A stretch of 38,271 nt of DNA from an uncultured Candidatus Pelagibacter sp. (GTDB lineage: Bacteria; Pseudomonadota; Alphaproteobacteria; Pelagibacterales; Pelagibacteraceae), in NCBI GenBank assembly GCA_905612525.1, contig CAJQSG010000002.1:1-38271 (forward strand), read 5' to 3'. This document shows positions 774 to 32,334 of this stretch, one piece after another. The notes beneath the pieces were generated by a model, which saw only the letters and a list, made by a program, of their open reading frames with translations, did no database searches and was not told where the DNA came from. The number at the start of each line of letters is the position of its first letter. Position 1 is the stretch's first letter. The position numbers were made by a program, and so were the translations under genes.

Positions 774-2381
774 TTACTTTCCGAAAATACCTAATTTAAC
801 ATCATAATCAACTGCCACTCCATAATCAGGATCATCATCACTATCAACAACAAGTTGACCAGCTCTACTTAACAACTTATGACAATCACGAGTTAAGTGC
901 CTAAGTTTAACTTTTTTTCCAAAGCTGTTGTACTTATCAGCAATATCTTCAATTGCCTTTAGGGCTGATTGGTCAATTACTTTTGATCCTGCAAAATCAA
1001 TAATAATTAATTCAGGATCTTCTTCTGGTTTGAATAATTCTAAAAAACTATTAGTTGAACTAAAAAAAAGCGCTCCTTCTATTTCATAAACTTTTGCACC
1101 TTTTTCTGTTTTAGAAGGTCTTTCAGTAGCTCTAATTTTTGAGGCAGACTTCCACGCAAAAACTAATGCAGAAACTATTACACCTACTATTACTGCAACT
1201 GCTAAATCCTCTAGAACAGTTACCACAGTTACAAGCACTGTAACTAATGCATCACTTTTAGGTACAAAAAATAATATCTTTAGTGAGTTCCACGCAAATG
1301 TTCCAATCACCACCATAAACATCACACCCACTAAAGCTGCAATTGGAATCATTTCAATATAAGATGAGGTATATAAAATAAAAATTAATAAAAATAATGC
1401 AGCTGCAATTCCAGCTATTCTGGTTCTTCCACCTGACCTAACATTAATCATTGATTGTCCTATCATTGCACAACCACCCATTCCTCCAAAAAAACCTGTA
1501 ATGGTGTTAGCAAACCCTTGAGCTAAACATTCCTGACTAGCTCCTCCTCTTTTATTGGTTATCTCTCCCACTAAATTTAAAGTTAATAAACTTTCTATTA
1601 GTCCAATAGAGGACAATATAAATGCATAGGGAAAAATAATCTTTAGTGTTTCCAGGTTAAAAGGAACGCTTGGAATAGAAAAATTTGGAAGACCACCCTT
1701 AACACTGGCAAGATCACCAACATTTGGTATGTCAATTTTTAAGGTTAAAGCTAAAATAGTTGTGAATAAAATAGCTACCAATGTGGATGGTAACAACTTT
1801 GTTATTTTAGGTAAGAACCAAATAATAAACATTGTAAATACAACGAATATAATTGAATAAAGCAATGTGTTGCCTGTAATCCAAACAGCCTCACCTAGAG
1901 CATTTATTTTTTTAAACTGACTTAGTTGTGAAATACCAATTACTATTGCAAGACCATTAACAAAACCCAACATTACTGGCTGCGGAACCATTCTTATAAA
2001 TTTTCCAAGTTTAAAAACTCCTGCTAATAATTGAAAAACTCCCATTAAAACCACCGTTGCAAATAAATATTGAGCTCCATGATCCATAACTAATGAAACC
2101 ATTACAACAGCCAATGCACCTGTTGCTCCAGAAATCATTCCAGGACGCCCACCAAATACAGCTGTGATTAAACCAACAATAAATGCAGCATAAAGTCCTG
2201 ATAAAGGTGCCACTCCAGCAACAAAAGCGAAGGCAATTGCCTCGGGAACTAAGGCTAAAGCAACTGTTAAACCTGATAAAACCTCAATTCTAAATAATGA
2301 GAAAGACGCACCTTCCTTTGGAATATAGTTCTGTGAATTAAATCCAATAGATTTAGCAAATGATGAGAGAGTTGTCTTTAT
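774..2381 (-). CDS. SulP family inorganic anion transporter with C-terminal STAS domain; the frame extends upstream of the listed start
   Basis: GGRPGMISGATGA and a STAS-like C-terminus (LIIIDFAGSKVIDQSALKAIEDI). The open frame continues beyond the GTG at 2213 (FSLFRIEVLSGLTVALALVPEAIAFAFVAGVAPLSG...), typical SulP N-terminal sequence; the exact start is uncertain. Confidence 0.85.
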   Translation of the reverse strand: MKTTLSSFAKSIGFNSQNYIPKEGASFSLFRIEVLSGLTVALALVPEAIAFAFVAGVAPLSGLYAAFIVGLITAVFGGRPGMISGATGALAVVMVSLVMDHGAQYLFATVVLMGVFQLLAGVFKLGKFIRMVPQPVMLGFVNGLAIVIGISQLSQFKKINALGEAVWITGNTLLYSIIFVVFTMFIIWFLPKITKLLPSTLVAILFTTILALTLKIDIPNVGDLASVKGGLPNFSIPSVPFNLETLKIIFPYAFILSSIGLIESLLTLNLVGEITNKRGGASQECLAQGFANTITGFFGGMGGCAMIGQSMINVRSGGRTRIAGIAAALFLLIFILYTSSYIEMIPIAALVGVMFMVVIGTFAWNSLKILFFVPKSDALVTVLVTVVTVLEDLAVAVIVGVIVSALVFAWKSASKIRATERPSKTEKGAKVYEIEGALFFSSTNSFLELFKPEEDPELIIIDFAGSKVIDQSALKAIEDIADKYNSFGKKVKLRHLTRDCHKLLSRAGQLVVDSDDDPDYGVAVDYDVKLGIFGK

Positions 2382-2430
2382 CAGAAATTCCTTACAAATT
2401 TATTAGTTTAAATGAAGCAGTTAAATGTTT

Positions 2431-2556
2431 AATAAACCAAGTAGTTAGTAAAGTCTAGTTTCAATTATTGCGTTCTAAATAATTTTATGAGAATTATGCA
2501 ATAAAGTATTCTAAGGTATTAGTGGAAGACCAAAACTACTTCGACTTATATTAATA
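2431..2556. repeat. Intergenic repeat copy 1 (partner of 3600-3720)
   Basis: Shares the exact 19-mer taaagtctagtttcaatta (2449-2467 and 3621-3639), flanking similarity, and a distal block (aaggtattagtggaagaccaaaactactt vs gaggtagtggcgggagactaaaactacct). Confidence 0.65.
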
Positions 2557-2575
2557 CAAATAAAAGCTTTTTAGT

Positions 2576-3361
2576 TTAAGGCTTGAAAATTAACCTGGCA
2601 CCTCTATCTATTTTAAACATACTAATTTTTTTATCCTTAAAATATTCATTAGTAGCTGCTCTAGACCCTGACCATTCTCCATAATCATCTATAATTAATA
2701 CTCCATTTTTTACTAAACGAGGGTATAAGACTTCCAATTCAATTTTTGTACTTTCGTACCAATCAGTATCGAGTCTAAGAATTGAAATTTTTTCGGGGAT
2801 ATTTGATGAAATCTTTAAAGTATCTTCAACTTTTCCTTTAACTAAGACTAAACTATCTTTGTCTATGGCGCTATTAATAAGGTTTTTTTCAACTGCTTCA
2901 ATTGGTGAATAGGCATGAATATTATCAATATTGATATCTTTTTTATGAGTACGCATATAATATTCAGCTTTGAATCCACCTAAAAAACCATCTGCATCTT
3001 CATCTTTTTCTGTAGGATTTGACATACCTTCAAAAGTATCAAAACCATAAACTTTTTTATTTTTAATTTTTAATTTATCAATCATTTTTTTAAATAAAAT
3101 TAAATTTCCACCCTTCCAAACACCACACTCTACAAAATCTCCCTCAAGATTATTGCAATCTACATGCTGAATAGCTCTTAAGAGGCAAAAAATTCTATCA
3201 TGGCCCGTCATTGAAAATTTTGAAGCAGTTTCAACTAAATTAATTTCAGAATCTGTTGCTTCAGGATATAAGTAATTTAAAGAGTTATTTTCTATAGGAA
3301 CTATTTTTAGTCCAAACTTTTTAAGCAGTGATTTTCTAACTTTTAAAAAAGTCTTATACAT
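2576..3361 (-). CDS. TylF/MycF-like macrocin O-methyltransferase family protein
   Basis: FVECGVWKGGNLILFKKMI, VYGFDTFEGM, LRLDTDWYESTKIELEVLYPRLVKNGVLIIDDYGEW. Confidence 0.85.
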   Translation of the reverse strand: MYKTFLKVRKSLLKKFGLKIVPIENNSLNYLYPEATDSEINLVETASKFSMTGHDRIFCLLRAIQHVDCNNLEGDFVECGVWKGGNLILFKKMIDKLKIKNKKVYGFDTFEGMSNPTEKDEDADGFLGGFKAEYYMRTHKKDINIDNIHAYSPIEAVEKNLINSAIDKDSLVLVKGKVEDTLKISSNIPEKISILRLDTDWYESTKIELEVLYPRLVKNGVLIIDDYGEWSGSRAATNEYFKDKKISMFKIDRGARLIFKP

Positions 3362-3453
3362 TATGATGAATCTATAAATGATGATGTTCTTTAATACAAC
3401 TAATAAAGTAAATATCTTTTTAAATTAAAACTTGGTAATTTTTGTTATTTATT

Positions 3454-3546
3454 TAATAAAATTTTTAAGTAAAGTTTTTCTTTAACAGTCAAAACTGACA
3501 AAGGCCCAAATTATCTTTTATAAAACTTGCAGATAGTGAAAGTGTC
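3454..3546 (-). pseudogene. Decayed partial duplicate of the 3' part of the neighbouring HIT-protein gene
   Basis: Minus-strand tgggcctttgtcagttttgactgttaaagaaaaactttacttaaaaattttatt aligns with tggccactttcagtttgggtggttaagggaaaaccttattcaaaagttttatta of the HIT gene, with stops in all readings. Confidence 0.65.
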
Positions 3547-3599
3547 TTTTTTATCAATACATTTAAATTTTGATTATTTCTAAGTCAAAATGCTATTTG

Positions 3600-3720
3600 T
3601 TTAATTAAGCAAGCAGTTGATAAAGTCTAGTTTCAATTAATACGTGTTAACAAATTTGTTACGAATCAGATATATAATAGATGAGAGGTAGTGGCGGGAG
3701 ACTAAAACTACCTCTGTCCT
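3600..3720. repeat. Intergenic repeat copy 2 (partner of 2431-2556), contains a 9-bp hairpin stem
   Basis: Same shared blocks; inverted repeat agaggtagt (3684-3692) / actacctct (3707-3715), plus 14-bp palindrome taacaaatttgtta. Confidence 0.65.
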
Positions 3721-3726
3721 CACTCT

Positions 3727-4131
3727 TTAACTCTTAAAATACTTTTTAATCTTAAGAATAGTTTTTGCTAATAAAACTTTTGAATAAGGTTTTCCCTTAA
3801 CCACCCAAACTGAAAGTGGCCATGAACTATCTTTAGTATATCTTGCAATAATATGAATGTGTAACTGAGGAACAATATTACCAACTTTTTCAACATTAAG
3901 TTTTTTTGTTTTAAATATTTTTTTCATTAACTTGCTACAATGAACAATTTCTTTCATCAATAACATTTGATCTTTTGAGTTAAGTTCTGAAATATCAGTA
4001 ATATTTTTTCGCTTTGGAATTAAAATGATCCAAGGAAATTTAGCATTATCAATTAAACGAATACTGCACAGTTTTAATTCAGCTATTAGATGAGAATCTT
4101 TTAGAAAACTTTTACTTACTTTATTTGCCAT
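3727..4131 (-). CDS. HIT family (histidine triad) protein
   Basis: QLHIHIIARYTKDSSWPLSVW histidine-triad motif; FPWIILIPKR. Confidence 0.85.
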   Translation of the reverse strand: MANKVSKSFLKDSHLIAELKLCSIRLIDNAKFPWIILIPKRKNITDISELNSKDQMLLMKEIVHCSKLMKKIFKTKKLNVEKVGNIVPQLHIHIIARYTKDSSWPLSVWVVKGKPYSKVLLAKTILKIKKYFKS

Positions 4132-4195
4132 TATTAAACATTAATATAAATGTGTTCTATAAGCAAAATTATTATAGGCTAAATTAATTATTGCA

Positions 4196-4389
4196 GACAA
4201 AAAAATATGATCCGTTGCTAAAATATTTTCATGGAGACTTTTTATTTTTATCTACTGGGTAGTATTTGGATATATTTTTACTGGTAGCTTTAAGGAGCTG
4301 GAATACTAGGGCTTTGCTCTATAATTCCTCTCTTTTTTTATTATTTTCATGAAAGAATTTGGAATAAAGTTAAGTGGGGTCTTAATTAA
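4196..4389 (+). pseudogene. Remnant of a DUF2061-like small membrane protein
   Basis: Conceptual translation with one in-frame TGA and one frameshift: DKKI*SVAKIFSWRLFIFIYWVVFGYIFTGSFKE / ILGLCSIIPLFFYYFHERIWNKVKWGLN*; SWR and YYFHERIWN...WG are recalled DUF2061 motifs. Confidence 0.6.
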
Positions 4390-4405
4390 AAAATAAAGAA
4401 TATAT

Positions 4406-5710
4406 TTACAAGTATTTCTTTATTTTATCAGAGACGATTACTTTATTGTTGTTCATGTAATCTTCATGATTTTTTTCTATATTTTTAAGTTCATAAAGAT
4501 AATTAACCATCACACCATAAGATCTTTTAAAACCAGTTTCAGAAATATTTGCATTAATTACAATATCATCAACAATAGCTCCATTGCCTAAATGAAATCT
4601 ACTAACATCATTCGCTGGTAGTCCTTTTCCATTTTTTTCATTAACGATATAATGAGCTACTAATTTTGTTATAGCTTCTTTATTTCTTACAATTCTACTA
4701 TCACCTAGTTTTAAGTCTTGGGATTTTAAAAAGATAACATCTTGATCTTTTAGATCACCTAAAATATTTTTAATCTTAATTTCCTCTAAATAACTAAACC
4801 AATCAGCAAACCCTGGTATAGGTGACAAAGTGCCAAAGTTTTTAATGTGAGGTAGCTCTTCTTGTATTTCATAAACCACTCTCTTTATTAAAAAATTACC
4901 CAAGGTTACTCTTGATAAACCTTCTTGACAGTTACTAATTGAATAGAAAGTAGCAGTATCATAAGATTTTTCTTCATTATCTGTCGGCTTCATTAATTCT
5001 TGAATAGATTTACCAAGACCTTTTGTAAGAGCTACTTGAACAAAAATAATAGGCTCATCTTCAAGGGCTGGATGAAAGTAAGAAAAAAACCTTCTATCTT
5101 CCCCTAATCTTCTTTTAAGTTCATTCATATCTTTTATTTGATGAACTCTTTCATATTTAATTATTTTTTCTAAAACTGCAGCCTTTGTATCCCATGTGAT
5201 TTTAGCAAGTTTAAGAAATCCTGGATTAAACCAAGCTCTAAATAAATGCCTAAGATCATTATCTAATTCTGAAAGTTCTTTATTATCTTTTAATATTTTT
5301 ATCAAATCTTCTCTTAACGCAACTATAATCATAGTTCCATTGGGTGCCATATTCATTCTTCTAAAAAGTTCTCTTCTCTTACCTTCAGAAACTTTAAATA
5401 AATCAGACAAAGTTTTTTCATTTTGAGATTTTGTATAATTTTCAATTGCTTCGTTAACTTTTGTAAAGCTGGGCTTATATTTATCGTTAATTTTTTTGAA
5501 AAATAATAATTTATTTTCTGGAGATAGTGATTGATATAGTTCAGTAATATCTCTAGCAACAGTAATTCCAAATGCTGCACCTTTATGTGAGATTAAATCA
5601 TCAGATAGAGATATGATGGATTCTAAGTCATTTTTTTTAATATTTTTTATACTAAAAAGTTTTTGACCTGCATCAGCAATAGATGAAATTATTTGTTTTA
5701 AATTAAACAT
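4406..5710 (-). CDS. Malonyl-CoA decarboxylase family protein
   Basis: FHPALEDEPIIFVQVALTKGL, LSPIPGFADWFSYL, GAIVDDIVINANISETGFKRSYGVMVNYLYEL. Confidence 0.88.
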   Translation of the reverse strand: MFNLKQIISSIADAGQKLFSIKNIKKNDLESIISLSDDLISHKGAAFGITVARDITELYQSLSPENKLLFFKKINDKYKPSFTKVNEAIENYTKSQNEKTLSDLFKVSEGKRRELFRRMNMAPNGTMIIVALREDLIKILKDNKELSELDNDLRHLFRAWFNPGFLKLAKITWDTKAAVLEKIIKYERVHQIKDMNELKRRLGEDRRFFSYFHPALEDEPIIFVQVALTKGLGKSIQELMKPTDNEEKSYDTATFYSISNCQEGLSRVTLGNFLIKRVVYEIQEELPHIKNFGTLSPIPGFADWFSYLEEIKIKNILGDLKDQDVIFLKSQDLKLGDSRIVRNKEAITKLVAHYIVNEKNGKGLPANDVSRFHLGNGAIVDDIVINANISETGFKRSYGVMVNYLYELKNIEKNHEDYMNNNKVIVSDKIKKYL

Positions 5711-27593: not shown

Positions 27594-28301
27594 ATGAATT
27601 CAAAAATTTTAGTAACAGGAGGTAATGGAAGATTTGCCACTGTGCTAAAAAAAGAAAATAAAAAATTAAATTTAGTTTTTGCTTCTAAAAAACAGTGTAA
27701 TATTTTAAATTTAAAATCAATTGAGAGTGCTGTTAGAGCATTTAAACCAAAAATTATTTTACATTGTGCCGGATTATCAAGACCTATGGATATTCACTAT
27801 AAAAATATTAAAAAAAGTATAGATATTAATATTATAGGAACGGCCAATATCACGAAAGTGTGTGAGGCAAATAAAATAAAGTTGATATATTTTTCTACTG
27901 GCTATGTTTATGAAGGAAAAAAAGGAAACTACTCAGAGCATGATTCAGTTAAACCGTTTAATAACTATGGCTTGTCGAAATTAGGCGGTGAATGTGCTGT
28001 GTCAATGTATTCTAATTCTTTAATTTTAAGAATCACTATGACTGAAAAACCATTTCTATACAAAACTGCCTATACTAATTTAAAAAGTAATTTTATGTTT
28101 CATGAACAATTGGTAAAAATTTTACCTGAATTAATTAAAAAAAAGGGAATTATAAATGTTGGTGGACCATCACAATCTGTTTATAATTTTGCCAAAAAAA
28201 CCAATCCTAAAGTTATAAAAAGTTATGCAAAAGAAAGACCTAATTTCCCTCTAAATCAAACCATGGATTTAAAAAAATTAAAAAAAATTATTACGTGGTA
28301 G
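27594..28301 (+). CDS. RmlD-like sugar-nucleotide-binding SDR protein (dTDP-4-dehydrorhamnose reductase-like)
   Basis: ILVTGGNGRFATVL, IILHCAGLSRPMDI, FSTGYVYEGKKGNYSEHD, NNYGLSKLGGECAV; final codons lie in the opposite-strand tRNA. Confidence 0.8.
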   Translation: MNSKILVTGGNGRFATVLKKENKKLNLVFASKKQCNILNLKSIESAVRAFKPKIILHCAGLSRPMDIHYKNIKKSIDINIIGTANITKVCEANKIKLIYFSTGYVYEGKKGNYSEHDSVKPFNNYGLSKLGGECAVSMYSNSLILRITMTEKPFLYKTAYTNLKSNFMFHEQLVKILPELIKKKGIINVGGPSQSVYNFAKKTNPKVIKSYAKERPNFPLNQTMDLKKLKKIITW

Positions 28302-28372
28302 CGGGAAGTGGAATCGAACCACTGACCTCAGGCTTATGAGTCCTGCGCTCTAACCGACTGAGCTACCCCGCC
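28296..28372 (-). tRNA. tRNA-Met (CAU anticodon), intact, 3' CCA encoded (copy A)
   Basis: Minus strand GGCGGGGTAGCTCAGTCGGTTAGAGCGCAGGACTCATAAGCCTGAGGTCAGTGGTTCGATTCCACTTCCCGCTACCA; acceptor (with two G-U pairs), D arm and T arm fold; elongator Met vs Ile2(CAU) not decided. Confidence 0.9.
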
Positions 28373-28440: not shown

Positions 28441-28465
28441 CTCACTGTGCCTATAGTGTGCCAAG
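28441..28465. repeat. 25-bp arm-like motif, A-right
   Basis: ctcactgtgcctatagtgtgccaag; one of five related copies; also forms an inverted repeat with cacagtgag at 28494-28502. Confidence 0.7.
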
Positions 28466-28591: not shown

Positions 28592-29401
28592 TTAAAAAGC
28601 TAAATCTGAACTATCAACTTTTATCAATTCTTTACCCTGTACGTTAATCGTACATATCGTGTCAAACTCTTGTTGGGCCTGAATAGCAAAACCGCTATTA
28701 ATATGGATAAATGTATAAAATAATCCCTCACTTTCTTCCATTTCCTCTAAAAATTCATTTATCTCTTCATTTGGACTCTCAAAGCTATTAAAAGTCTTCA
28801 CAACATAGAAGTTCTCTTCGTCTATTAATGTTGTTCCTAAATAATGATCATACGAATAAAGTTTTAATCCCTGAGAAAATTTTTTTAGTTCTTTGTCTGT
28901 TGCAAACAACTTTTTCAACATATTAAGAATTTTTTTAGATTGTTTTTTATCTTCAATTTTAATTGGTAATAAAGTTTTTCCATAAATACTTAATGAGAGA
29001 AATGAATCGGATACCATTTCTTTAAAAAAAGGTTCAAAATTTTTGAATTCTTTTTTAAAATCTTTATCCATATCTGGAGAATAATTTATTTTAACTTTTC
29101 CTTTAGTTAATTTTCCTTTTGAGTTTATCTTAGCATCAATCTTTAGATACATACTTCCATCGTCCCCAAAATTAAAAACACCTTCAGATCTCAATACTTT
29201 AGAGTTAACAACTTTTGAACTGAATATCATGTTATAATCATCAGCATCAGCTTCACATTTTATAGAGTAATTTTCATCAATTTTTATTATATCTGTTTCT
29301 TCAAAAGCTTTTTTTACTGAAATATTTAAATCAGGTTCCTCAGCAAAAGAAGAAGGGTTCAACAACAAACCCAGAACAACAATCCCTAAAATCTTTTTCA
29401 T
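28592..29401 (-). CDS. Secreted/periplasmic hypothetical protein (cassette gene 1)
   Basis: 269-aa ORF; signal peptide MKKILGIVVLGLLLNPSSFAEE shared with 29665-30147. Confidence 0.7.
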   Translation of the reverse strand: MKKILGIVVLGLLLNPSSFAEEPDLNISVKKAFEETDIIKIDENYSIKCEADADDYNMIFSSKVVNSKVLRSEGVFNFGDDGSMYLKIDAKINSKGKLTKGKVKINYSPDMDKDFKKEFKNFEPFFKEMVSDSFLSLSIYGKTLLPIKIEDKKQSKKILNMLKKLFATDKELKKFSQGLKLYSYDHYLGTTLIDEENFYVVKTFNSFESPNEEINEFLEEMEESEGLFYTFIHINSGFAIQAQQEFDTICTINVQGKELIKVDSSDLAF

Positions 29402-29413
29402 GGGAAAGACTTT

Positions 29414-29438
29414 CTCACTGTGTCATGTGTGTGTCAAG
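29414..29438. repeat. 25-bp arm-like motif, B-left
   Basis: ctcactgtgtcatgtgtgtgtcaag. Confidence 0.7.
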
Positions 29439-29484
29439 AAATGTTGAGAAGTGAAATAAGGTACACAGAACAGGAATCCCGACC
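29415..29484 (-). repeat. 70-bp leader repeat (identical by eye to 30161-30230)
   Basis: tcactgtgtcatgtgtgtgtcaagaaatgttgagaagtgaaataaggtacacagaacaggaatcccgacc in both copies. Confidence 0.9.
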
Positions 29485-29536
29485 GCTGACCTTAGGCTTA
29501 TGAGTCCTGCGCTCTAACCGACTGAGCTACCCCGCC
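29462..29536 (-). pseudogene. Partial tRNA-Met copy B: 5' half, D arm and anticodon arm retained; T arm/acceptor 3' side replaced
   Basis: Minus strand ggcggggtagctcagtcggttagagcgcaggactcataagcctaaggtcag then cggtcgggattcctgttctgtg instead of tggttcgattccacttcccgctacca. Confidence 0.88.
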
Positions 29537-29555
29537 ACTTAATTATTGTTGTTTT

Positions 29556-29583
29556 ATAATAGATTTTATTTTTAGTCTATCAA
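29556..29583 (-). promoter_or_regulatory. tRNA-type promoter retained upstream of copy B
   Basis: TTGATA - 16 nt - TATTAT on the minus strand, homologous to copy A. Confidence 0.6.
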
Positions 29584-29603
29584 GTATTTGCGTATTTTCT
29601 TAG

Positions 29604-29628
29604 CTGACTGTGTCCTATGTGTGTCAAG
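29604..29628. repeat. 25-bp arm-like motif, B-right
   Basis: ctgactgtgtcctatgtgtgtcaag. Confidence 0.68.
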
Positions 29629-29664
29629 GATACGTCTTACGAGGTTCCTGCGGACTCTATACTT

Positions 29665-30147
29665 CTATTTTTTTATGTTTGTAAGATATTTCCTTTTACT
29701 GACCCACAAACATTCTCCATAGAATTTAAAATCATCTTTTTTGTACCATGCAGTTCCTGTTAAGTATGGACTAGAATTACGGTCAAATTTTTCTTTATTT
29801 TTATATCTTAAAAGAAAATACTGAAAAGCAAAAGGTGATTTTTTCTTTTTTTTTTTTAACTTTATCTCTAAACCATCTTTAAAATCAACAGAGTCAAAAT
29901 TTTGAGTTTTTACTTTTCCAATTTTATATTGTGAGTTATTTGCAGTGTCTACAAATGCATTTATTGTAACTTCTGATTTTTCTTCATTTATCTTCAAATC
30001 AAAAAAAGCAAACATATTTTTATTTATTAAGGGGTACTTTGATTTCTCAACAGAATGCATGGCACATCTATAATACGCTTCTTCAGATGAATAAACATTT
30101 CCACTTAGCAGTAAACTCAGAACAATAATACCCAGAATTTTTTTCAT
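29665..30147 (-). CDS. Secreted/periplasmic hypothetical protein (cassette gene 2)
   Basis: 160-aa ORF; signal peptide MKKILGIIVLSLLLSGNVYSSEE like that of 28592-29401, body not obviously related. Confidence 0.68.
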   Translation of the reverse strand: MKKILGIIVLSLLLSGNVYSSEEAYYRCAMHSVEKSKYPLINKNMFAFFDLKINEEKSEVTINAFVDTANNSQYKIGKVKTQNFDSVDFKDGLEIKLKKKKKKSPFAFQYFLLRYKNKEKFDRNSSPYLTGTAWYKKDDFKFYGECLWVSKRKYLTNIKK

Positions 30148-30159
30148 TAAAAATATATT

Positions 30160-30184
30160 GTCACTGTGTCATGTGTGTGTCAAG
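30160..30184. repeat. 25-bp arm-like motif, C-left
   Basis: gtcactgtgtcatgtgtgtgtcaag. Confidence 0.7.
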
Positions 30185-30230
30185 AAATGTTGAGAAGTGA
30201 AATAAGGTACACAGAACAGGAATCCCGACC
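30161..30230 (-). repeat. 70-bp leader repeat (partner of 29415-29484)
   Basis: Identical 70-mer by eye. Confidence 0.9.
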
Positions 30231-30282
30231 ACTGACCTCAGGCTTATGAGTCCTGCGCTCTAACCGACTGAGCTACCCCGCC
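30208..30282 (-). pseudogene. Partial tRNA-Met copy C: same replaced 3' half as copy B
   Basis: 57 bp (30228-30284) identical by eye to 28318-28374 of the intact locus, then tcgggattcctgttctgtg replaces the T arm and acceptor. Confidence 0.88.
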
Positions 30283-30350: not shown

Positions 30351-30375
30351 CTCATTGTACCTATAGTGTGCCAAG
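30351..30375. repeat. 25-bp arm-like motif, C-right, with an extra half copy at 30390-30401
   Basis: ctcattgtacctatagtgtgccaag, then tagtgtgccaag. Confidence 0.65.
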
Positions 30376-31153: not shown

Positions 31154-31330
31154 ATGGCTACATTAGATGGAATTATTGAACCAATATATTTTTTGATTAC
31201 CTCAATATCATTTATAATATTAAGTGTAATTCAATATAAAAAATTTGGGAAAACTAGGGAAACAATTTATCTCGCAGGCTTATCATTTTTTTTCTTATGT
31301 AGTTACATTGCTATAATTTTGAAAGTTTAA
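31154..31330 (+). CDS. Small hypothetical membrane protein (58 aa)
   Basis: MATLDGIIEPIYFLITSISFIILSVIQYKKFGKTRETIYLAGLSFFFLCSYIAIILKV, read manually; below the ORF-track size cut. Confidence 0.5.
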   Translation: MATLDGIIEPIYFLITSISFIILSVIQYKKFGKTRETIYLAGLSFFFLCSYIAIILKV

Positions 31331-31394: not shown

Positions 31395-31880
31395 TTAATC
31401 TCTAAAATTTACAAATTCAATTGGGAGACCAATATCAATGGCCTCGATTGCAGATATTGCTTCTTGAAGATCATCTCTCTTTTTTCCTTCAGCTCTTAAT
31501 TCTTCTCCTTGAATTTTAATCTGTATTTTAAGTTTTAGTTTTTTTATGTCAGAAATAATTTTTTTTGCATTTTCTTGGCTAATACCTTCCTCTAATTCAC
31601 TAACTTGTCTAATGGTTGCACCTGCGGCACTTTCCGAATTTTTAATAACTATTACTCTTGGATCTACTTTTCTTCTTATAAGATGAATTTGTAGTAATTC
31701 ATTTGCTTGTTTTAATTTTAACTCATCTGGCGCTAGCATAGTAATTATCTTATCTTTTCTTTCAATTGAAATATTGAGTCCTTTAAAATCATATCGATTA
31801 CCAATTTCTCTTAAACAATTGGCAAGAGCGTTATCAAATTCTTGATAATTAATTTTACTTATTACATCAAATGATGGCAT
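31395..31880 (-). CDS. yajQ: YajQ family (DUF520) nucleotide-binding protein
   Basis: MPSFDVISKINYQEFDNALANCLREIGNRYDFKG ... IQGEELRAEGKKRDDLQ. Confidence 0.92.
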   Translation of the reverse strand: MPSFDVISKINYQEFDNALANCLREIGNRYDFKGLNISIERKDKIITMLAPDELKLKQANELLQIHLIRRKVDPRVIVIKNSESAAGATIRQVSELEEGISQENAKKIISDIKKLKLKIQIKIQGEELRAEGKKRDDLQEAISAIEAIDIGLPIEFVNFRD

Positions 31881-31932: not shown

Positions 31933-32175
31933 TTAAAATTTAATCTTTTTTAAAAAAATCTGCTTAGCAGTTACTGCTACGATTTTTAGAGTGTTTTCAT
32001 TGACAACATTATTTATCGCTCTTATTCGTATTTCTAATTTGTGTCCATCTAATTTCCAAAAATAGTCATCACAAATAATAATACCATCTTCTTTTAAAAA
32101 TTTAAGAGCATTATTTAAATTTTTTTTCACCTGATAGTATTTATGGTGTCCGTCTATATAAATTATATCAAGAAT
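31933..32175 (-). pseudogene. 5'-truncated SAM-methyltransferase fragment
   Basis: Open frame ILDIIYIDGHHKYYQVKKNLNNALKFLKEDGIIICDDYFWKLDGHK..., preceded by an in-frame TAA; the N-terminal Rossmann half is absent. Confidence 0.65.
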
Positions 32176-32217: not shown

Positions 32218-32272
32218 CACTGACATCAGGTTTATGAATCACGCACTCTAGCCAACATATCTAAACTCCCCC
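32218..32272 (-). pseudogene. Highly decayed tRNA-Met copy D with decayed promoter region
   Basis: cactgacatcaggtttatgaatcacgcactctagccaacatatctaaactccccc-aataattattgttgattt aligns with copy C cactgacctcaggcttatgagtcctgcgctctaaccgactgagctaccccgcc-acataattattgttgattt. Confidence 0.72.
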
Positions 32273-32334
32273 AATAATTATTGTTGATTTGTAAAAGATT
32301 TCTATTTTTATACAATCAGGTTTTGATAATATAA

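Follow-up and report, generated by a model that had tools for sequence, protein, structure and literature searches.

The window analysed in this work, a stretch of 38,271 nucleotides from an uncultured Candidatus Pelagibacter sp., contains an intact tRNA-Met(CAT) gene at 28296..28372, which was detected by ARAGORN and scored 65.8 bits with the Rfam tRNA model. This gene and the features described below lie on the minus strand unless stated otherwise. Two pseudo-tRNA-Met copies were found at 29460..29536 and 30206..30282, with 96% and 100% identity respectively over tRNA positions 1-55, the same decayed 3' part and Rfam scores of 29.3 and 25.4 bits. A fourth copy at approximately 32218..32324, strongly decayed and with a promoter remnant, was 75% identical to the repeat over 105 nt and likely marks the oldest boundary. 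A copy of the tRNA-Met promoter region, assigned as promoter by consensus only, was located at 29553..29590; it was 90-95% identical to the copy in unit 3 and alignable with that in unit 1.

Two open reading frames lie between these copies. The first (28592..29401) encodes a predicted secreted orphan of 269 aa with a MKKILGIVVLGLLL signal, and the second (29665..30147) a predicted secreted protein of 160 aa with a MKKILGIIVLSLLLSG signal and a nearly orphan body. No homologue of the first body was found in 250 SAR11 genomes. Matches of the second protein in other genomes covered mostly the signal peptide, the longest (in genome G106) spanning residues 1-85 at 40%, and neither Pfam, PHROGs nor PADLOC gave a significant family match for this cargo. 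The two proteins aligned with each other only over residues 1-44 (BLASTP E=1e-5, 16/44 identical). The analysis confirmed two statements of a preliminary description of the locus, an identity by eye of about 80% between the DNA starts coding for the signal peptides and a lack of obvious similarity between the mature parts, and the full-length paralogy that it had named as refuting its view was not found in the sequences. Single-sequence structure models of the two bodies (pLDDT 47 and 52) were too poor for a fold comparison. As a guess, the cargo could act at the cell surface or in the periplasm, for example in interaction with phages or competitors.

A leader derived from tRNA-Met

Positions 29415-29484 and 30161-30230 were identical at 70/70 positions, as seen in the sequence, the repeat family and the alignment, and an exact repeat of 70 nt is far beyond what chance could produce. 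The identity extended beyond the 70 bp first noticed: in 20-nt blocks it was 95-100% from tRNA position 7 to 106, compared with 75% in the signal peptide, 55-65% in the upstream arm and 33-40% in the body. The leader is more conserved than the signal peptide, as had been noted. The identical 70 bp form the 3' part of a repeat derived from tRNA-Met(CAT), in which the tRNA promoter, the tRNA 5' part (positions 1-55), a decayed 3' part (GTCGGGATTCCTGTTCTGTGTACC...), a 25-bp motif (CTTGACACACACATGACACAGTGAG), 12 nt and an ATG follow one another, with a further arm motif in front of the promoter in the minus-strand unit.

The 25-bp motif CTTGACACACACATGACACAGTGAG contains a direct repeat with a period of 11 bp. 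It occupies 29414..29438, where it can be read as a putative promoter (TTGACA-17-GAAAGT) with the ATG of the first reading frame after 12 nt; CTTGACACACACATGACACAGTGAC at 30160..30184 is placed in the same way, 12 nt before the second. The left arm of the window units is CTTGACACACACATGACACAGTGAG or a variant ending ...GAC. Similar motifs lie upstream of the tRNA copies: CTTGGCACACTATAGGCACAGTGAG at 28441..28465, with a period-11 direct repeat at -114 from position 25 of the intact tRNA, is the putative right end of one cassette, CTTGACACACATAGGACACAGTCAG at 29604..29628 that of the neighbouring cassette, and a degenerate form, CTTGGCACACTATAGGTACAATGAG, occurs at 30351..30375 upstream of the tRNA copy at 30206..30282.

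The preliminary description had taken the leader for a recombination or RNA element. The first part of this proposal was supported, the leader resembling an attachment site that derives from a tRNA and bears a motif of the integrase arm type. The idea of a known RNA element, apart from tRNA, was given up after the Rfam search. The identity of the leaders may stem from gene conversion, which the description had also proposed, or from a recent common origin. The end of an attachment site made from a pseudo-tRNA had not been foreseen, and the derivation from tRNA-Met, the two further copies and the motifs at 28441-28465, 29604-29628 and 30351-30375 had been missed.

Paired repeats at a fixed distance from tRNA-Met in SAR11

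The 25-bp pattern, with at most 2 mismatches, was found in 11 of 201 genomes, and the reversed control gave 0 in the listed genomes. The nine motif-matching stretches in the named genome collection all belonged to Pelagibacteraceae/Pelagibacterales. Across the tRNA-Met loci compared in related SAR11 genomes, a pair of 6-mers spaced by 11, 75-77 nt from tRNA position 25, was present in 17/20 cassette-followed copies versus 0/43 single-copy loci (Fisher p=1e-12), a count that is not fully independent because part of these loci had been fetched by leader similarity. Among loci L111-L118, which had been located by searching 59 genomes for the tRNA, the pair occurred in 6/8. It was absent from L116 and L118, which have truncated tRNA-Met copies, and from the decayed copy of the window, and these absences count against the explanation preferred below.

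Several unrelated repeat sequences take this one position relative to the tRNA. The GACACA class includes the window and others, TGGTCCAC was found in L111-L115, TGATCACAC in L107 and L117, and TGCGTC in L077. Two polarities were distinguished. In one (L036-L038 and L077), an intact tRNA leads and the copies that follow it start at tRNA position 24-27. In the other (the window, L080, L081 and L111-L118), it is the last copy that is intact, and the first one breaks off after position 42-63. The crossover core would accordingly be placed in the anticodon arm, at about positions 25-42, where both truncated kinds overlap. From their layout near integrase genes and tRNAs, we infer that the repeat pairs are arm-type sites of an integrase.

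These results suggested that the leader is probably the left attachment end of cassettes without an integrase, two of which stand in tandem at tRNA-Met(CAT) and would probably be moved in trans. Each insertion would break the tRNA in the middle. The copy lying upstream would keep its promoter and 5' part, gain the 3' sequence and arm of the element, and die. The other end of the cassette would supply an arm together with a tRNA promoter and a 5' part, and once this 5' part is joined to the old 3' part, one working tRNA would result. The intact gene at the end of the array would be such a reconstituted target. The arm, a pair of 11-bp-spaced repeats, would be bound by a tyrosine integrase; the cassettes would probably be moved in trans by integrases that belong to phages or their satellites and use this tRNA; and transcription of an open reading frame joined to the arm could give an mRNA with hardly any 5' leader. 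The anatomy of the cassettes is well supported; trans mobilisation, present activity and a promoter function of the arm are inferred. Neither an excised circle nor a precise presence/absence difference within a strain was seen, which counts against this explanation.

Cassette ends and cargo in other genomes

Most such loci lacked an integrase and carried cassettes of 0.4-4 kb, and tandem cassettes were present in L038, L077 and the window. Their cargo elsewhere included a restriction/helicase protein, a Mrr-like protein and MrcB_N+HNH proteins. L111-L115 had both ends in common, about 110 nt on the left and about 230 nt on the right, around cargo that could not be aligned, and their outer flanks were unalignable as well. 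Between pairs of these loci, the aligned inner parts were 88.8-94.4% identical, compared with 73.6-79.8% for the flanking chromosome (9 pairs with outside alignments), a similarity of the ends that may in part reflect constraint on the tRNA and the arms. A conserved 55-aa open reading frame was observed near the right end in L111-L114, 4/5 loci of the TGGTCCAC class. Similar layouts were found at tRNA-Leu (L246 and L255, with partial copies in L247 and L251) and at tRNA-Thr (L250 and L254).

The repeated units could also have arisen by tandem duplication of a tRNA-Met and secreted-protein unit, the leader being held identical by gene conversion and the bodies having diverged or been swapped by homologous recombination, with no integrase involved. 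A recent duplication or conversion would account for the leaders of the window, which were 100% identical over 70 nt but reached no more than 81-82% identity with the best copies in other genomes, and L033, L035 and L243 carry arrays of paralogues of one family that resemble tandem duplication and speak against the cassette explanation. However, the bodies have no similarity, L111-L115 have common ends around different cargo and different outer flanks, the distance between tRNA and repeats is fixed across several unrelated sequence classes, and integrase elements have the same layout. Duplication with conversion was thus judged improbable.

Several further observations were made around these arrays. 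In L033 (6457-13039) and in L243/L257, tandem arrays of about 700 bp encode a secreted family (DFEIEGMSIGDSLLDYF) in units with tRNA-Met remnants, near tRNA-Pro and tRNA-Ser genes. In L034 (6793-9030) a transporter-like open reading frame of 719 aa lies between GGTACTGGT repeat pairs with an adjoining tRNA-Leu, and no integrase was seen there. A YajQ-like gene (31395-31880, minus strand) and a 58-aa open reading frame (31154-31330, plus strand) were located inside the island of the window. In other fetched loci YajQ has a different place (L249), and homologues of the 58-aa frame occur in L076 and L090, which were fetched around PF00589 matches; both are possibly displaced core genes. A 65-aa open reading frame (31933-32130, minus strand) resembles a methyltransferase fragment and adjoins the decayed tRNA copy.

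Integrases and candidate helpers

No tyrosine recombinase was present in the list of window open reading frames, and the whole draft genome gave one PF00589 match, on another contig. The genome is a draft of 802 kb in 53 contigs and 65% complete, and the genomes of its relatives are also drafts, so that a missing integrase is weak evidence. Among the compared loci, only L107 and L119 had an integrase. In L107 an integrase element is located at the same tRNA-Met; it is bordered by a tRNA copy on each side and has TGATCACAC arms, the arm class that L117 has without an integrase, and it adjoins the same 344-aa gene, presumably GMP-reductase-like, that was found in L077 and L080. Repeats of this kind lay near int in the integrase-bearing SAR11 loci L086-L089 and L107, and three of these loci (L086, L087 and L107) had them at the opposite end of the element too.

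An integrase with GACACA arms was not found in SAR11 by searches with PF00589, PF13356 and an integrase protein or by the order-wide pattern search. Such integrases were seen only in viral contigs whose host is unassigned, which counts against the cassette explanation. With the relaxed GACACA pattern TTGACACACNNNNGACACANTNA, 3/4 viral contigs had it close to a PF00589 integrase. Among viral matches to TGGTCCAC and TGATCACAC, queried with few integrases, a single contig had an integrase close to the arm, a result that speaks neither for nor against the explanation. When viral and phage sequences were searched for the tRNA core together with the arm, nothing of relevance was obtained, and the sole match of one such search (L096) was rejected as lying within phage coding sequence.

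Old integrase elements could have been reduced to their ends and some genes and become immobile, as in remnants of cis-mobilizable elements, a reading that differs from the preferred one in present mobility only. It would fit the graded decay of the tRNA copies (from one intact copy through two partly decayed ones to one that is strongly decayed), the related integrase-bearing elements at the same site and the integrase not found nearby. The cassettes, however, are small, their open reading frames adjoin the arm at a fixed spacing, and the same ends, more alike than the chromosome, surround different cargo across genomes, which suggests exchange over one-way decay. Immobile scars are on this evidence rather unlikely.

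The arm as a possible promoter and the signal-peptide module

In the GACACA class, 12 nt separated the 25-bp arm from the start codon in nearly all open reading frames next to an arm, many of which had an in-frame GTG at +3. Read as TTGNNN-17-hexamer, most arms facing an open reading frame matched the -10 consensus at 3-4/6 positions (2/6 in L031), and the start codon usually followed the -10-like hexamer after 6-7 nt (TTGNNN-17 bp-TANNNT-like). The arm may thus double as a promoter of the cargo, a suggestion against which the modest -10 match (2-4/6) counts. A purely regulatory leader, a promoter or a tRNA-like 5' RNA kept for the expression of surface proteins, would also account for the fixed distance from arm to ATG and the promoter-like hexamers. 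It is difficult to reconcile with the motif upstream of the tRNA, which faces no start of an open reading frame, with L036-L038, where the motif is at the far cassette end and reversed relative to the reading frames, with motif occurrences adjacent to integrases, and with tRNA parts that now score poorly as tRNAs. A leader with this function only was considered improbable.

The MKK(I/L)LGI... DNA pattern occurred at 25 places in 15/59 genomes (control 0). The resulting set comprised 31 distinct sequences, including 3 truncated copies of the window reading frame at 28592-29401, and different bodies were related in only 3 pairs (E<1e-3). The earlier idea of a constant export signal before varying bodies was supported by this set, with a signal that is near-constant. 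It had not foreseen that cargo elsewhere includes non-secreted genes, nor that many open reading frames with the signal module are not directly behind an arm. Module and cassette are therefore associated yet separable. The common form of the module uses GGG, ATC, GTG and CTG. In the window open reading frames these account for 5.9, 10.6, 8.7 and 1.9% of the respective codon families, and this rare codon use makes shared descent likelier than convergence.

In L245, contig 52 of the same genome, five period-11-bp repeat sites of differing sequence lie among three signal-module open reading frames (1285-4670), one of which starts MVKKLLGI; a prepilin-like open reading frame is present and a thyX-like gene adjoins. 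thyX-like genes also adjoin the integrase elements in L108 and L109.

Discussion

Cis-mobilizable elements (CIMEs) are integrase-less islands with attL and attR that accrete in tandem (PMC5704250). The cassettes described here are likewise flanked by attachment ends, a pseudo-tRNA with arm at one end and an arm with tRNA at the other, and form tandem arrays, here at tRNA genes. No integrase-like open reading frame was found in them, and transfer genes, judged from lists of open reading frames only, were also lacking. With regard to accretion, the integrase element of L107 is found at this site in a different genome. Unlike CIMEs, the window-type cassettes are 0.4-4 kb, often with one gene, their constant ends enclose different cargo across genomes, no conjugative relative was seen, and the arm is also promoter-like.

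Tycheposons are marine tRNA-targeting elements of 4-200 kb in Prochlorococcus and Methylophilaceae (PMC10872708). Like the SAR11 cassettes, they occur in marine oligotrophs, carry cargo and are accompanied by partial tRNA copies where they insert, tRNA-Met being one of several targets, but the SAR11 cassettes have no tyrosine recombinase of their own and are mostly below this size range. Integron cassette arrays without integrase (CALIN; PMC11389934) also consist of small tandem cassettes that would need an integrase in trans. Their attC sites are inverted, hairpin-forming and recognised by IntI, whereas the sites here are tRNA-derived with period-11 direct-repeat arms; no integron integrase and no attC-like inverted site were seen, as judged from the repeat layout. 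Among the integrase-bearing SAR11 phage or satellite elements (L107, L109, L110), L107 has the same tRNA-Met site and repeat geometry, but these elements carry an integrase and replication-like genes, and the window cassettes have neither. No published description of these combinations was recognised in titles and abstracts, subscription papers being mostly outside the search.

It is tentatively conceivable, though doubtful, that SAR11 maintains an integron-like economy of cassettes, in which single genes with tRNA-derived attachment ends would be moved in trans by phage or satellite integrases and expressed from the arm as near-leaderless mRNA, with a shared signal module exporting the bodies. 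The cassette reading gives testable predictions on helper integrases, and such cassettes could be searched for by a tRNA copy combined with an 11-bp-spaced repeat pair at constant distance. SAR11 bacteria rank among the most abundant marine cell types, and their streamlined genomes are considered poor in mobile elements. The cargo of the cassettes consists of predicted exported orphan proteins here and includes restriction-type genes elsewhere. If the cassette reading is true, the entry of flexible genes into SAR11 genomes would be explained by very small cassettes that lack an integrase and occur at several tRNA genes.
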